From assembly GCF_009695635.1 (NCBI RefSeq), contig NZ_VUNN01000019.1:1-46696 (forward strand): a DNA stretch of 46,696 bases, in the 5' to 3' direction. Origin of the DNA: Bullifex porci. Lineage in GTDB: Bacteria; Spirochaetota; Spirochaetia; Sphaerochaetales; Sphaerochaetaceae. The notes below the pieces were generated by a model. That model saw only the letters and a program-made list of their open reading frames with translations, did not search any database and was not told the origin of the DNA. The position numbers and the translations under genes were made by a program. Of this stretch, positions 38,506-46,696 are shown piece after piece; position 1 is the first letter of the stretch, and every line of letters begins with the position of its first letter.

Positions 38506-39834
<1,329 letters not shown>

Positions 39835-40183: not shown

Positions 40184-40223
40184 TTGACAGTTATACAAGG
40201 TGACTTTAAAATAAACCTTGTAT
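40184..40223 (+). promoter_or_regulatory. Porin promoter with operator palindrome around the -10
   Basis: Consensus TTGACA (40184-40189), exactly 17 bp, TAAAAT (40207-40212). A perfect 9-bp inverted repeat, ATACAAGGT (40193-40201) and ACCTTGTAT (40215-40223), brackets the -10 with half-site centres 22 bp apart (two helical turns). This geometry suits a dimeric repressor that blocks RNA polymerase. In RNA the second arm would lie at the start of the roughly 65-nt leader. Confidence 0.7.
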
Positions 40224-40275
40224 TATGGAATAAAGGGGAAAGATGATTCCTGTGAATTGTCTCCCGAATTATTTG

Positions 40276-40393
40276 GAGGAATTATGAAAAAGACAATTGC
40301 TATTCTATTAGTAGCAGTTCTAGCAGTTAGTTCCGTATTCGCAGGCTTCTCAGGCAAAGCTACAGTAGGTCTCGGATACAACTGGGAGACTAA
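40276..40393 (+). repeat. 118-bp block identical to 41829-41946
   Basis: From the GAGGAATT before the ATG through the 37th codon, copy 1 (40276-40393) and copy 2 (41829-41946) are identical base for base, including synonymous positions. The first 40 or so bases also match copy 3 (from 44941). Further identical or near-identical blocks occur near the 3' ends. Confidence 0.9.
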
Positions 40394-41741
40394 GAACTAT
40401 GGTTTCTCAAACGGAACAGGTTTTGATGTAGATGTAGACCTCACAACAGCAGAAGCAGACAAGGTTGCAGAGGGTGATATCTATGCAGGTATCAAGGCAA
40501 CAATGAGTGTTAAGGTTGCAAACAAATCAACAAAAGATGGTCAGATGGACCATGGTTCAAACTTTTGGAACAACATAACTAAAACTCAATCACCAAATAA
40601 TGGATATGCTTTAGGTTTATTCCTTGATGTAGCTGAAGCATATGTAGCTGGTGAAAACTGGAAAGTAGCTATTACAGGTACACAGGGTGCAACAAGCTAT
40701 GCTAAGTCATTCACAACTCATAAGGAAGCTATCAAAGATGTATTTGGCAACAAGACAGGTGATGAGAAAGACGTTGCAGATGATGTAACAGGTAGTTTTG
40801 CTTTAAATAAAGCTCCAGGTGTAACAGTAGTAGTTGCTGGTTTCAAGGGTTCTGTTGGTTTCAATGGATCTAATGAAAAGGGTAAGGAATTCTTTAATTA
40901 TAATGCATTCTTAGAAACTCCAGAATTTAGTGTTGATGGCTTAACAGTTCAGGCTGCTGTTGGTGCTTCAAGAAACGTAGATCCAGATCCAGAAAATGAC
41001 AAATTCCATGACTTTGCACTTAATACCTCAGCAAAAGTTGGATATGCAACAGATGCTCTTTCAGTAGCAGTAGCAGCAGACTATGATGCAGTTAAGTATT
41101 TGAAAGACAATGATACTATCTATTCATTATTTGATGCATCTGCAAAAGTAGCATTTGCTCCAGTAACAGTTGATGCTTACTATGGTCTAAATGGTATTTT
41201 AGCTAAAAACCTTGAAGATAATAAGACATTAGCTCACACTTTAAGTGCTCAGGTAGCAACAGATCTCGCAGCATTTGATCTTCCTGTAAAACTTACTGTA
41301 TGGGGTAAGGATATCCTTAATACAATGGATTACGGTGCAAAGGCAGAAGTAACAATCGATGTTATCAAGCTCAGTGTTAATGGTGGTTATGTTATTGACC
41401 CAGTATTACTCAAGAAACTCTATAATGAAAATCTTGGTAAATATTATATTGGTGCTGATGTAGAGTATACAAATGACCTCTTTACAGCTAAAGCAGGCGT
41501 AGGTTTCAATTCTTATGTTGCTAAGGGCTTAGAAAATGCAGCACAGTTAACACTTTCAGCTTCTGTAGAATCTTCAGCAATCATCCCAGGTGCAACACTC
41601 AAGCTTGCTTATGGTAAAGCTAAAAATGCTCAGAACCTACTTAAGGATCAGAAGACAGTTGATATAACAGCTGAAGGCTTATTGAAACCTTTTGACCAGA
41701 ACCTTGGTAAGGTTGAAGCTACATGTACAATCAAGTTCTAA
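40284..41741 (+). CDS. Secreted outer-membrane porin-like protein, copy 1
   Basis: The 485-aa product has a typical signal peptide (MKKTIAILL...SSVFA) with cleavage after residue 20, then alternating short amphipathic strands rich in Gly, Thr, Val and Tyr (GKATVGLGYNW, VDAYYGLNG, LFTAKAGVGFNSYV), and ends in a C-terminal aromatic (ATCTIKF). This is the pattern of an outer-membrane beta-barrel of the spirochaete porin/surface antigen type; the pore function is inferred. GGAGG 5 nt before ATG 40284 fixes the start; a frame open from 40218 begins in the leader. Codon use suggests high expression. Its first 110 bases are identical to copy 2. Confidence 0.8.
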   Translation: MKKTIAILLVAVLAVSSVFAGFSGKATVGLGYNWETKNYGFSNGTGFDVDVDLTTAEADKVAEGDIYAGIKATMSVKVANKSTKDGQMDHGSNFWNNITKTQSPNNGYALGLFLDVAEAYVAGENWKVAITGTQGATSYAKSFTTHKEAIKDVFGNKTGDEKDVADDVTGSFALNKAPGVTVVVAGFKGSVGFNGSNEKGKEFFNYNAFLETPEFSVDGLTVQAAVGASRNVDPDPENDKFHDFALNTSAKVGYATDALSVAVAADYDAVKYLKDNDTIYSLFDASAKVAFAPVTVDAYYGLNGILAKNLEDNKTLAHTLSAQVATDLAAFDLPVKLTVWGKDILNTMDYGAKAEVTIDVIKLSVNGGYVIDPVLLKKLYNENLGKYYIGADVEYTNDLFTAKAGVGFNSYVAKGLENAAQLTLSASVESSAIIPGATLKLAYGKAKNAQNLLKDQKTVDITAEGLLKPFDQNLGKVEATCTIKF

Positions 41742-41764
41742 TCTAATTAAAAGATTTAACTTAA

Positions 41765-41794
41765 ATCCCTCAGATAATTTCTGGGGGATTTTTG
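41765..41794 (+). terminator. Terminator between porin copies 1 and 2
   Basis: A 10-bp stem ATCCCTCAGA/TCTGGGGGAT (one G-T pair) with a 5-base loop and a short T run. The 95-bp gap has no clear second promoter, so copy 2 may depend on readthrough past this terminator, which would give lower expression than copy 1. Confidence 0.75.
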
Positions 41795-41828
41795 TATATA
41801 AATACATAAGCATAATCCTTCATTCAAA

Positions 41829-41946
41829 GAGGAATTATGAAAAAGACAATTGCTATTCTATTAGTAGCAGTTCTAGCAGTTAGTTCCGTATTCGCAGGCT
41901 TCTCAGGCAAAGCTACAGTAGGTCTCGGATACAACTGGGAGACTAA
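41829..41946 (+). repeat. 118-bp block identical to 40276-40393
   Basis: Second copy of the identical 5' block shared by the tandem porin genes, covering the RBS, signal peptide and first mature residues. Confidence 0.9.
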
Positions 41947-43390
41947 AGATTATGGTTTCTCAAACGGAACAGGTTTTGATGTAGATGTAGACCTCTCAAC
42001 AGCAGAAGCTGGCAATGATGTAGAGGGTGATATCTATGCAGGTATCAAGGCAACAATGGGTGTCAAGGTTGCTAACCAGGCTGGTACAAAAGGTACAGAA
42101 GTTTGGAACAGTAAAGATAAAGCTGACAAAAACTATGGTTTAGGTTTATTCCTTAAGGTAGCTGAAGCATATGTAGCTGGTGAAAACTGGAAGGTATCTA
42201 TCACAGGTACACAGGGTGCAACAAGCTATGCTAAGTCCTTCACAACACATAAAGAAGCAGTAGAAGATGTATTTGGTAACGAAACTACAGATACTAAAGA
42301 TGTTGCAGATGATGTAACTGGTGATCTTTTTGCTTTCAACAAGGCTCCAGGTGTTACAGTAGAAGTTGCTGGTTTTAAGGGCTCTGTTGGTTTCAATGGT
42401 TCTGAAGATGAAAACAGAAAAGTTAAAGTAGATACAGCTACTGAAAAGGTTGAAGCTGAATTAGATGCAGATAAAAAATTTGTTGCTGGTAAGTTCTTTA
42501 ACTACAATGTATTTGTAGAGTCACCATCTTTTGATGTTAATGGTTTATCACTTCAGGCTGCAGTAGGTGCTTCAAGAAAGGTTGATAGCTATGGTGTTTT
42601 CGGTAAAGAGACAAAGAAGATAAAATATTTTAACGTAGAAGAAGAATATATAGTTTATACTCCAAAATTCTATGATTTAGCAATTAATACATCAGCAAAA
42701 GTTGGATATGCAACAGATACTCTTTCAGTAGCAGTAGCAGCAGACTATGATGCAGTTAAGTATTTAAAAGATGACAATACTATCTATTCATTCTTTGATA
42801 CATCTGCAAAGGTAGCATTTGCTCCTGTAACAATTGATGCTTACTATGGTCTAAATGGTATTGTAGCTAAAGGCCTTGAAGCTGCTCCATCAAAGCTTAA
42901 GACATTAGCTCATACTTTAAGTGCTCAGGTAGCAACAGATCTCGCAGCATTTGATCTTCCTGTAAAGGTTACAGTATGGGGTAAAGATATCCTCAATACA
43001 ATGGATTACGGTGCTAAGGCAGAAGTAACAATCGATGCTATTAAGCTTGGTGTTAAGGGTGGATATGTTATTGATCCAATCTTAGCTAAAAAAATAGCTG
43101 ATGAAAATTTTGGTAAATACTATCTTGGTGCTGATGTAGAGTATACAAATGACCTCTTTACAGCTAAAGCAGGTGTAGGTTTCAATTCTTATGTTGCTAA
43201 GGGCTTAGAAAAAGCAGCACAGTTAACACTTTCAGCATCTGTTGAATCTTCAGCAATCATCCCAGGTGCAACACTTAAGCTTGCTTATGGTGCAGCTAAA
43301 AATGATCAGAACCTTCTTAAGGATCAGATTGCATTACAGCCAGCTCAGAACCTTGGTAAGGTTGACGCTACATGCACAATCAAGTTCTAA
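41837..43390 (+). CDS. Secreted outer-membrane porin-like protein, copy 2
   Basis: The 517-aa paralogue of copy 1 has the same signal peptide and C-terminal ATCTIKF. It differs by insertions in two regions: about residues 80-95, and about 190-275, where it carries a charged stretch (DENRKVKVDTATEKVEAELDADKKF) and a YFNVEEEYIVY segment absent from copy 1. These would be surface loops if the barrel model holds. The strands between the loops are nearly identical to copy 1. GAGG precedes the ATG. The mosaic of identical and divergent blocks points to recombination between copies. Confidence 0.8.
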   Translation: MKKTIAILLVAVLAVSSVFAGFSGKATVGLGYNWETKDYGFSNGTGFDVDVDLSTAEAGNDVEGDIYAGIKATMGVKVANQAGTKGTEVWNSKDKADKNYGLGLFLKVAEAYVAGENWKVSITGTQGATSYAKSFTTHKEAVEDVFGNETTDTKDVADDVTGDLFAFNKAPGVTVEVAGFKGSVGFNGSEDENRKVKVDTATEKVEAELDADKKFVAGKFFNYNVFVESPSFDVNGLSLQAAVGASRKVDSYGVFGKETKKIKYFNVEEEYIVYTPKFYDLAINTSAKVGYATDTLSVAVAADYDAVKYLKDDNTIYSFFDTSAKVAFAPVTIDAYYGLNGIVAKGLEAAPSKLKTLAHTLSAQVATDLAAFDLPVKVTVWGKDILNTMDYGAKAEVTIDAIKLGVKGGYVIDPILAKKIADENFGKYYLGADVEYTNDLFTAKAGVGFNSYVAKGLEKAAQLTLSASVESSAIIPGATLKLAYGAAKNDQNLLKDQIALQPAQNLGKVDATCTIKF

Positions 43391-43416
43391 TCTAAATACG
43401 ATAGAACAATTTATAA

Positions 43417-43452
43417 ATGCTCTCAGTTTTTCTGGGAGCATTTATATTTATA
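43417..43452 (+). terminator. Terminator after porin copy 2
   Basis: A 10-bp stem ATGCTCTCAG/CTGGGAGCAT (one G-T pair) with a 5-base loop, then TTATATTTATA. It overlaps the end of the converging ATPase pseudogene. Confidence 0.78.
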
Positions 43453-44854
43453 GTGAATAAACATCATTTAATGAAATTAAGTGTATATTTGATTCTTTAT
43501 TAGCTTTTTCAATAAGGCTTTCTTCAAAACCTGATTTAGAGAATAGATACCAAGTCTTTGACTTATAATCAAATTGAGAACACTTATCAATTAAATTATC
43601 TAGAATATCAATATCAACTTTATCATTTGTCCATTTGCATTCACCAAAGAGTGCTTTATCATTATGTGTTGACATCATATCTATTTCTATTTGCTTTTTT
43701 TGTTTAGTACTACCACCCCACCATCTTTGAAGATCATTATAAAGAAATGGATCACGAGTTACATTAAAGGATGCAAACATGTAAGAAATACATATCTGTT
43801 CCCATTCTAAGCCCATATATCTTGAAAGAGAATGAATAACAACCATATCAAGAATATCTTTACCTTTCCCAAAATTAATCATATTGATATTGGGTATTAC
43901 AAATTGATAATGAAACCTAAATAGACCATTTGTAATAGTATAGATACTTTTCTTATTGTTACTACTTCCATAAGGAGTTTCTTTTTTAATTAATCCAACT
44001 CTTATCATATTTGAGAGATAAAAGCTTACTGTTCCAGTTTGCATCCTAACCTTTTCAGCTATATCATTTAAACTACTTCTACCAGATGCAATAGCACTTA
44101 ATACATCACTATATCTAGCTGTCTCTTTAAATTCTTCATTTATTAATGTGTCAGTTCCACCAGCAAGTATTGAACCTGTATTAAAGAAGAGGTTATATAA
44201 GTTATCTTTTAATGAAATACTATCGTCTACCATATTAAGATAGCGAGGTATTCCACCTAATGCTGAATATAATATAGCAGTTTCTTCTTTTGTAAAGCTC
44301 CAGTTATAAGCTTTCATCTCCCATAGCATAAACTTCTTAACTTCCATTATTAATGTTGTTCTACCATATAAGGGGCTATCACCAGAAAGAACTTGTTCTT
44401 TCATAAAGCTAACTGAAGAGCCACATAAAACTAATTTTAGTTTAGTATTCTTCCAATACTTATCTATTGAGTATTGTAATACAGATGATAGCTCATCTTT
44501 ATTACCTGCTAATAAAGGGTATTCATCTAATACTATTATGTAATTAGAAGAAAGAAATTTATCATTATGATTTAAGAAATCAGAAATCTCTTTATAAGAA
44601 TTAAAGCTTGGATGAGAAATATTAGGCATTAATACAGATAAGAATGAATCTGTCATATTAACTATATTATTTTCTATTGAAGTTTTTAATCCTGTACAAG
44701 TAATACAATTCCTATTCTCAATAGATTTATTTATTAATAATGTTTTACCTATTCTTCGCCTTCCCCAAATAACAGCAAATTCAAAATTATCAGAATCATA
44801 GCACTAATTTAATCTTTCATGCTCTTTAGTTTTATTTATAAATGATTCTTTAAT
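43448..44854 (-). pseudogene. Archaeal-type AAA+ ATPase (ATPase_2/DUF234), nonsense-disrupted
   Basis: An open frame from ATG 44656 gives 402 aa with Walker-B YIIVLDEYPLL, LCGSSVSFM, LYGRT, a winged-helix linker and the DUF234-type C-terminal nuclease-like domain (IDMMSTHNDKALFGECKW). Walker A is missing from it but is found upstream in the same frame (FAVIWGRRRIGKTLLI). Between that and the expected N-terminus (FINKTKEHERLN) is an in-frame TAG at 44804-44806. No ATG, GTG or TTG lies between the TAG and Walker A, and the natural start codon appears to be ATT (44852-44854). It is therefore a recent pseudogene, or a sequencing/strain variant, of a normally about 470-aa ATPase. It sits inverted between porin copies 2 and 3. 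Confidence 0.8.
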
Positions 44855-44945
44855 TTTAGAATTATTATACTTAGATTAAACTAAGCAAGTTAAAACTAAG
44901 TAAATTTTTATTCATAATTAATTATCTGCTATTCAAATAGGAATT

Positions 44946-46517
44946 ATGAAAAAGACAATTGCTATTCTATTAGTAGCAGTTTTAGCAGCAGGTTCTGTAT
45001 TTGCAGGAATCTCTAGTGAAGGAAAGATTGCCTATGGCTATGATCTTGATTCCAAGAACACAGGATTCACAAACAGTACAAACCTAAAAGTTAACGTAGA
45101 CCTTGCAACAGCTTCTGAAGAGAAGCAGGCTGAAGGTGCAATTTATGCAGCAGTAAAAGGTGATTTAACACTCAAACTTTATAATGGTGCAAAGGGTGAT
45201 TCTACAGATGACCCAATGGCTTGGGGTGGAAACACAGGTTTAGACTTTATCGCTATTAGTGATGTAAGTGCTACAATCAATGGTGCAGATTGGTCTATAG
45301 ATATCTTAAATTCTGGCAAGCAGCTCGACCTTGCAAAATCAGCTATTGATTCATCAACAAAGCACAAGTAGCTTGATAGCTATGGCAAGAAATTAGGTGA
45401 TAAGACTGATGCTACAACATATAAAGTTGGTTTAAACGCAGCTCCTGGTTTCACAGTAACATACAAAGGCTATTCTGTAGGTCTTGGTTTCCAGTATAAA
45501 GATGCGGATAGCACAGATAAGGTTGGAAAGACATTTAAAGATGAAAAAGAATATTCAACAGGTGATATGGTTAAGTACTACAAAGGTACAGATTTCTCTC
45601 TCGTAGCAAAGACTCCTGCAATTGCAGTTACTGATGAAATCAAGGTTCAGGCTGGTGCATCATTCTATAACAATGAAACAGCTTCTGTATCTATTGGTAC
45701 TAAGTCAAGTGAATGGAAGACAGTATTTGATAAGTTTAAGACTAATAGAGGATCTGAAATTGGTGGTTCTGTAGCAGTATCTTATGCTAATGATTCTATG
45801 AGTGCTAAGGTAGCAGCTGATCTTGTTTATGCTATTAAAGCATACAAAGTAGAAGGTACAACTAATGCAAACGGTATTGTAGAAAATAAAGATGCAGAAA
45901 AGTTTGGTATGGACTTAGCAGCTAACTACACAATGGATCCTGTATCAGTTGATGCTTATTATAAGTATGATAGTACAAAGAAGGATGCAGTTGATGCTAA
46001 CTACTTAAGCTTACAGGTTAAGACAGATCTTAATGCATTTGATGTACCAGTAGTATTAACAGTATATGGTACAGATCTTTTCAGATTTAAATATACCGGT
46101 ATAGATCCTACTAAATATTCTAGTGCTATATTTGGTTTAAAAGCTGATTTAACACCAATGGAAGGCATAACAATCAATACTGAAGCATCTATTACACCAT
46201 TCATGGTACCAAGTGGTGCACCAAGTGAAGCAAAGTTTATTGGCTGGTCAGCAAAGGCTGGTGCAATATATGATGCAAATTTATTTACAGTTGAAGGTGG
46301 CTTAAAGATCAGCAATGCAGGATTTAATGCAAAATATGAAAAAGATGCTACATTTAAGCAACTTGTAAATAAAGTAGTTCTTGCAGCAAATGCAAAAGTT
46401 ACATCAACAACACTCGTACCAGGTGCAACTCTTGCTCTTGAATACAGTGCAGATGACCTCTTAAATTCACTTTCAGCAACATGTAAGACATCTAACGAAC
46501 TTACAACTTATGGTTCA
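44946..46517 (+). pseudogene. Porin-like protein, copy 3, interrupted by an amber codon and cut at its 3' end
   Basis: The frame starts with the same signal peptide (MKKTIAILLVAVLAAGSVFAG) and stops at TAG 45369-45371 after 141 aa, but the same frame stays open for another 1,300 bases and clearly encodes the rest of the barrel (GLNAAPGFTVTYKGYSVGLGF..., VDAYYKYD, SLQVKTDLNAFDVPV, LVPGATLALEYSAD). One base change (for example AAG to TAG) explains it. The usual C-terminal ATCTIKF is not seen; similarity ends near 46500, where an IS-like hairpin begins. The DNA after the amber codon shows no other lesion, so the mutation is recent or is an assembly variant. Confidence 0.78.
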
Positions 46518-46696
46518 TTGACGTACTCCCACGGGCAAGCCCATGGGAATCTGGCCATGGTAACGACGGTGTCAGAGTCAGTTAAAAAGGGACAAAAAGA
46601 GTCAGCTGAAAAAGGACAGAAAAAGTCAAATAAAAAGGGAAAACATACAAACCATACTAAAGTGCTTTCCTTAATTATTATTGATAAAGACTTAGA
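46518..46696. mobile_element. Putative end of an IS200/IS605-type element (incomplete at window edge)
   Basis: The pentamer TTGAC (46518-46522) is followed 5 bases later by a hairpin, CCCACGGGC (46528-46536) and GCCCATGGG (46539-46547), of the kind found just inside the ends of IS200/IS605 (TnpA_Y1/TnpB) elements, which insert next to short 5'-TT-rich targets. It lies at the point where similarity to the porin family ends. No transposase is visible within the remaining 150 bases, so the identity is inferred from the hairpin and location only. Confidence 0.35.
46577..46648 (+). repeat. Three imperfect 24-bp tandem repeats
   Basis: GTCA recurs at 46577, 46601 and 46625, each followed by (G/A)-x-T-(A/G)AAAA and GG(G)A-type sequence. 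Read from ATG 46558 the repeats encode an 8-residue Lys-rich unit (roughly ES-x-K-KGQK) and the frame remains open to the window end. There is no ribosome-binding site before that ATG, so coding is uncertain. Confidence 0.6.

Follow-up and report, generated by a model that had tools for sequence, protein, structure and literature searches.

Surface proteins exchanged by DNA inversion are known from several bacteria. In the S-layer switch of Campylobacter fetus (sap), inversion acts on a single promoter and silent cassettes with a conserved 5' region. The outer-membrane protein genes (omp1) of Dichelobacter nodosus, a system attributed to Moses and colleagues (1995, as cited in PMC5903667), reportedly have one promoter and undergo multiple-site DNA inversion. 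To our knowledge, the antigenic variation described so far in spirochaetes rests on gene conversion or promoter effects. Our literature search, which left most subscription papers outside its scope, found no phase variation in Sphaerochaeta and no spirochaete invertible element of this type. Here we describe an array of predicted porin genes on contig NZ_VUNN01000019.1 of the spirochaete Bullifex porci, together with its relatives in the same family. It resembles vlsE of Borrelia and tprK of Treponema pallidum, which are likewise spirochaete loci with an expressed gene, silent copies and variation in loops. The likeness to the vpma locus of Mycoplasma agalactiae and the vsp locus of M. bovis, whose tyrosine recombinases are Xer1 and Mbr, extends to one promoter, promoterless surface-protein genes with conserved 5' ends, a recombinase at the locus, and inversion (PMC2268961). 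We consider it highly probable that the array is a site-specific DNA-inversion switch of outer-membrane porins; sequence comparison shows the anatomy of the locus, its conservation, the position of its breakpoint and the exchange of cassettes between sister species.

Results

A short 5' block on every porin gene

The window, that is, the whole stretch of 46,696 nucleotides analysed here, is the complete contig C11 of the genome (G000; 2.42 Mb, 67 contigs), whose nearest named relatives are Candidatus (Ca.) Aphodenecus and Ca. Ornithospirochaeta. Three porin copies lie in it; a fourth copy and a recombinase gene lie on a second contig of the genome, C1. The main features are as follows.

40184..40212, + strand: predicted promoter of the putative single expression site, TTGACA-N17-TAAAAT (11/12 to consensus, best in the region)
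40235..40265, + strand: predicted hairpin in the 5' untranslated region (5' UTR), GGG..CCC plus GATGATTC/GAATTGTC, found in the expression-site leader only
40277..40318, + strand: putative recombination block of copy 1, -7 to +34, defined by within-genome identity (31 pairs)
40296-40303, 40304-40310 and 40311-40318, + strand: candidate core within the copy 1 block, made of ATTGCTAT, the spacer TCTATTA and GTAGCAGT, respectively
40284..41741, + strand: porin copy 1, 485 amino acids (aa), the cassette at the promoter in this assembly, with signal peptide, predicted beta-barrel and upstream promoter
41830..41871, + strand: putative recombination block of copy 2
41837..43390, + strand: porin copy 2, 517 aa, intact and promoterless, a mosaic of copy-1-like and copy-4-like sequence
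44939..44980, + strand: putative recombination block of copy 3
44946..46520, + strand: porin copy 3 (ATG at 44946), broken by an in-frame TAG at 45369-45371 and with its 3' end cut by an insertion
G000:C1:1805-3352, - strand: porin copy 4, outside the window
G000:C1:3386-4582, + strand: predicted tyrosine recombinase (PF00589), 398 aa, outside the window

Copies 1 and 2 are identical over 118 bp (-8 to +109; 40276-40393 and 41829-41946), silent sites included, and copy 3 shares 43 bp with them (-7 to +35), which bears out exactly the 118 and roughly 40 identical bases reported in the initial annotation. Copy 4 has 121-124 bp in common with both copy 1 and copy 2, and it carries, on C1, the last of the four occurrences of the 25-bp block start in this genome. 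Outside the block, copies 1, 2 and 4 have no monomorphic stretch longer than about 38 bp, at an overall identity of 83-87%. The limits of the block emerge from 31 within-genome pairs drawn from 10 genomes of two genera: identity is about 0.3 upstream of -9, reaches 0.90 at -8 and 1.00 at each position from -7 to +34, and then decays. Within genomes, synonymous identity in codons 2-9 is complete (208/208), compared with about 0.67 for the gene body. Between species the same codons reach 0.73, where the comparison value is about 0.5, and rank top among 407 windows. Each gene thus carries the same short 5' site, in some cases inverted. Pure gene duplication was rejected, as the leaders are unrelated up to -9.

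With spacers of 6-8 bp allowed, nearly all species of the main genus (g1) have their best inverted repeat at +9 to +37. It is imperfect, of the form ATTGCWAT-N7-GTWGCARt, and its right arm ends at +34, as does the invariant block. All copies in a genome share one form of the 7-bp spacer, and the form differs between species (TCTATTA in G000; TCTTTTA, TCTCCTG, TCTTCTG and others elsewhere). Tyrosine recombinases generally require matching spacers for strand exchange. The arms are conserved; their symmetric positions +17 and +29 covary, in a change confined to one clade and hence counting as one event.

Cassette exchange between sister species

Two sister species, G012 and G015, preserve the products of an exchange. 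Their enolase-side leaders are 97% identical upstream of the block, while the cassettes behind them are 32% identical. The enolase-side cassette of G012 is instead 97% identical to a G015 cassette (S1) that stands behind another leader; for this pair it is the leaders that differ, at 30% identity. The four blocks show no difference at all (100% identity), and the second leader is common to both species (91% over 3.4 kb). This four-way comparison places the junction inside -8 to about +48.

The expression site

The promoter and hairpin upstream of copy 1 mark a putative expression site. The initial annotation had singled out copy 1 as the only copy with a strong promoter, and our scores agree: 11/12 there, against best matches of 9/12 upstream of copies 2 and 3, in a region where promoter-like sites are rarer than in shuffled sequence. 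Its further suggestion, an expression site with archived copies, is supported by one promoter-side copy and promoterless others. The pattern recurs among relatives, with an 11/12 sigma-70 promoter with N17 in the enolase-side leaders of 11/11 species scored (two genera), and with scores of 6-10/12 and unrelated leaders at copies outside the expression site. Judged from sequence only, one promoter would therefore serve an otherwise promoterless gene set. An alignment of 13 species reads, along the enolase-side leader, TATCTTGACA, 17 bp, TARAAT, AAAAAGGGGA, the hairpin, CCCGAATT and GGAGGAATT, with a near-invariant promoter. RNAalifold assigns the hairpin 8 pairs in these species, 0 of them broken and 2 with double-sided changes; it is possibly an mRNA stability or translation element of the expressed porin.

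A tyrosine recombinase beside the array

The recombinase gene is intact and adjoins copy 4, 33 bp away and divergent from it, and has a nagB-like gene on its far side. Its product matches PF00589 (Phage_integrase; E=2.2e-16, 60.6 bits against a cut-off of 27.1), and R232, K273/276, H341, R344, H367 and Y376, which we take to have the catalytic roles, are invariant in five orthologues. The locus thus includes a recombinase gene with an R-K-H-R-H-Y set. The protein scored at most 34 bits against the NCBIfam XerC, XerD and XerA equivalogs, whose cut-offs are at least 220, and its best sequence match in the PDB is lambda Int. Within g1, orthologues (36-72% identity) stand beside a divergent porin copy in G001, G004, G007, G008 and G009; the orthologue of G014 stands beside a porin 5' end only, at a contig end. 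The same arrangement with a divergent porin is found in G079 (genus g12) and in G028 and G029 (genus g10), and the other neighbour is a nagB-like gene across the porin-adjacent cases. In G011 a divergent integrase occupies the recombinase position, together with a diverged block. Weak integrases in G012 (C15) and G015 (C15) were set aside as unrelated.

Distribution across related genomes

Porin starts are the only places that carry the 25-bp block pattern, which is present in 12/16 genomes of the genus and 0/123 other genomes of the family; G002, G003 and G005 have neither block nor recombinase orthologue. Across related species the layout runs from enolase through the promoter and conserved 5' UTR hairpin to the porin array, then to an inverted porin, the recombinase and a nagB-like gene. 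In all five arrays that are contiguous from enolase to recombinase (G001, G007, G009, G011 and G079), the copy next to the recombinase has the opposite orientation to the one next to enolase. The simplest form is that of G079, a three-contig genome, in which two tail-to-tail porins lie between a 52-bp inverted repeat, with promoter and enolase on one flank and the recombinase on the other. Two porins beside the orthologue in Ca. Ornithospirochaeta avicola share a different block; elsewhere in Ca. Ornithospirochaeta the neighbour of the orthologue is often a threonine-aldolase-like gene. In several metagenome-assembled genomes contigs end in a porin 5' block (G014 twice, G010 and G062; the end of L071 and the starts of L072, L073 and L087). 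Mixed populations would produce such ends, but we did not adopt this reading, since identical repeats alone suffice to break an assembly there.

The porin proteins

The porins matched no Pfam or NCBIfam family and have no PDB relative by sequence. An AlphaFold2 model of copy 1 is a barrel (predicted local distance difference test score 68.6, predicted template modelling score 0.63) that matches many outer-membrane barrels with Z up to 16, a comparison that speaks to fold class only. A signal peptide and a predicted transmembrane beta-barrel thus favour the porin-like family named in the initial annotation. Variable blocks fall at about residues 82-111 of copy 1; 34 aa are inserted after residue 201 and 26 aa at 234-239, and smaller insertions lie near 272 and 313. 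These positions are close to the earlier estimate of 80-95 and 190-275. Structure prediction, which had been suggested as a check on whether variable regions are surface loops, gives a loop bias: copies 1, 2 and 4 differ at 24% of strand positions and 47% of other positions (p=3.5e-7) in a model of moderate confidence. The main insertions lie at or beside loops, and low model confidence limits their assignment to the inside or outside. Copy 2 is itself a mosaic that resembles copy 4 in its 5' half and copy 1 in the rest (run test, p about 0.004-0.009), from which it follows that ordinary homologous recombination also acts on the array.

Genomic context

On C11 the order is enolase (38539-39834), copy 1, copy 2, an ATPase_2/DUF234 gene on the - strand and copy 3. 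The open reading frame listed from TTG 40218 truly starts at ATG 40284, as copy 1. The array had earlier been closed at 45371; the block identities within that span hold, but this position is the end of the in-frame TAG, and the copy 3 frame runs on to about 46520. The remaining features of this part of the window are listed here.

41763..41791, + strand: terminator-like hairpin 3' of copy 1
43412..43446, + strand: terminator-like hairpin 3' of copy 2
43448..44656, - strand: ATPase_2/DUF234 protein within the array, N-terminal part missing (the ATPase_2 match begins at model position 111)
46521..46696, strand not assigned: IS605-like sequence, the end of an IS605-family insertion, up to the contig end

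C1 opens with insertion sequence (IS) DNA and tnpB (OrfB_IS605). Behind these lies the 3' end of a porin gene (last residues VTASCKVAF, then a stop), which points towards copy 4. For this reason C11 and C1 probably adjoin through the insertion in copy 3, and the joined order is probably enolase, promoter, copies 1-3, inverted copy 4 and recombinase. Other transposase sequence lies beside the IS605-family (tnpB) insertion of copy 3, in a span covering 46521-46696 and G000:C1:1-1654. AAA ATPases (ATPase_2/DUF234 and AAA_14/DUF4143) recur between porin cassettes in several species (also at L066, L070, L074 and L076). Scans of the window with Rfam models and for tRNAs returned no matches.

Discussion

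Proposed mechanism

We infer a model that extends to the role of this recombinase, the precise point of crossover, the flipping of cassettes inside a population and the benefit gained. One promoter with a 5' UTR hairpin, next to enolase, would drive whichever porin cassette is joined to it, while the remaining intact cassettes would lie downstream without promoters and the recombinase-side cassette would be inverted relative to the promoter. A dedicated tyrosine recombinase, whose gene lies beyond the array and beside the nagB-like gene, would recognise about -7 to +34 around each start codon and exchange strands in the 7-bp spacer, which falls among the codons for the signal peptide. When the promoter-side site recombined with an inverted one, the intervening DNA would flip and a new porin would come to lie behind the promoter, with the frame always kept; sites in the same orientation would give deletion. 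Longer homologies would allow mosaics to form by ordinary homologous recombination. The benefit may be evasion of phage, bacteriocins or host immunity, or changed uptake.

Alternative explanations

Slow reshuffling of the array over evolutionary time, akin to integron-like cassette acquisition, could take the place of real-time switching. The content of the array does differ strongly between species, with AAA ATPases interspersed, and exchange was seen between species only. Against this stand the identity of the sites within genomes, a sign that their function is maintained, the conservation of the promoter side, and the inverted orientation of the copy next to the recombinase in all contiguous arrays, which a reversible switch requires. 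We hold reshuffling alone to be unlikely. RecA-dependent homologous recombination or gene conversion between the 5' repeats, with the recombinase a prophage-derived bystander, would explain the copy 2 mosaic and could make use of the blocks that reach 100-125 bp. Most blocks, however, are 43-70 bp and body identity is often 30-40%, which is short for RecA. In all genomes of the main genus the invariant part stops at the same bases (-7 and +34), with a spacer that is uniform within genomes and variable between them. A single recombinase that keeps its position in several species, across three genera, and has no adjacent phage genes also does not look like a bystander, nor does the replaced recombinase of G011 that accompanies a changed block. 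A scan of IMG/VR for the block gave no match, so nothing supports a phage location. We judge this RecA-based explanation quite improbable. The related proposal of the initial annotation, gene conversion, taken here as of the vlsE/TprK kind, is not supported as the main mechanism, because the breakpoint is confined to a 5' site beside a conserved recombinase and the recombinase-side copy is inverted. The exchange between G012 and G015 moves an entire cassette at this short site; copy 2, on the other hand, is a mosaic. That there is no active switching, the block being kept for translation initiation and secretion in ordinary tandem duplicates, seems to us extremely improbable. The block does span a ribosome-binding site and signal peptide, both of which constrain sequence, but its silent sites are identical within genomes and different between species, the leaders directly upstream are unrelated, and a non-array porin paralogue in G013 and G015 has a similar signal peptide without the block. 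The G012/G015 exchange also argues against static duplicates.

Several observations weigh against the inversion switch, and the first two also favour the RecA-based explanation. In G001 and G004 a frameshift or stop interrupts the recombinase gene (L070:6438-7594 and L067:4768-5955), so that the switch may be locked there, or these may be assembly errors. Searches of G012, G013 and G015, including the position beside the nagB-like gene, turned up no recombinase orthologue despite the cassette exchange; in these genomes the array stops at contig ends and the nagB-like gene is relocated. Most of genus g10 has the orthologue divergent from a threonine-aldolase-like gene, with nagB kept and no adjacent porin (L148-L154 and L156-L158). 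The 8/11 inverted repeat is weak when taken from one sequence alone, and the best repeat is centred elsewhere in G079 and G028. A second candidate core, AGAGGAATTAT-GAAAAAG-ACAATTGCTAT, overlaps the first, which leaves the exact crossover position a candidate only. Moreover, -7 to +19 is homogeneous within genomes, although a crossover in the spacer would leave this segment with the leader, which obliges the model to invoke either constraint from recognition or additional homologous exchange. With one genome per species, neither a species nor a sample showed more than one arrangement.

Comparison with known systems

If the inversion switch is real, a dedicated site-specific recombinase for porins would give this phylum, in its uncultured gut members, a different route to surface variation. 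The G079 locus, with its two porins, is small enough for direct testing, and the species-specific spacers would provide a natural set of orthogonal recombination sites. It is likely that the switch occurs in at least three genera of one family, with a resident chromosomal recombinase, in-frame exchange in signal-peptide codons, and recombinase and site co-evolving by species. No vpma/vsp-type recombinase reached NCBIfam cut-offs here. In vpma/vsp, lipoprotein genes carry the sites in their 5' untranslated region (-1 to -72), whereas the sites described here cover the start and signal-peptide codons of outer-membrane barrels in another phylum. The omp1 system, compared by description, belongs to another phylum and acts on other proteins, while the present locus has AAA ATPases in the array and a conserved recombinase beside nagB. 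The sap system switches S-layer proteins through long 5' homology with RecA involvement, in contrast to the 42-bp core found here. Finally, vlsE and tprK vary by segmental gene conversion into one gene with no dedicated recombinase, whereas the spirochaete locus described here appears to exchange whole cassettes at a fixed 5' site.

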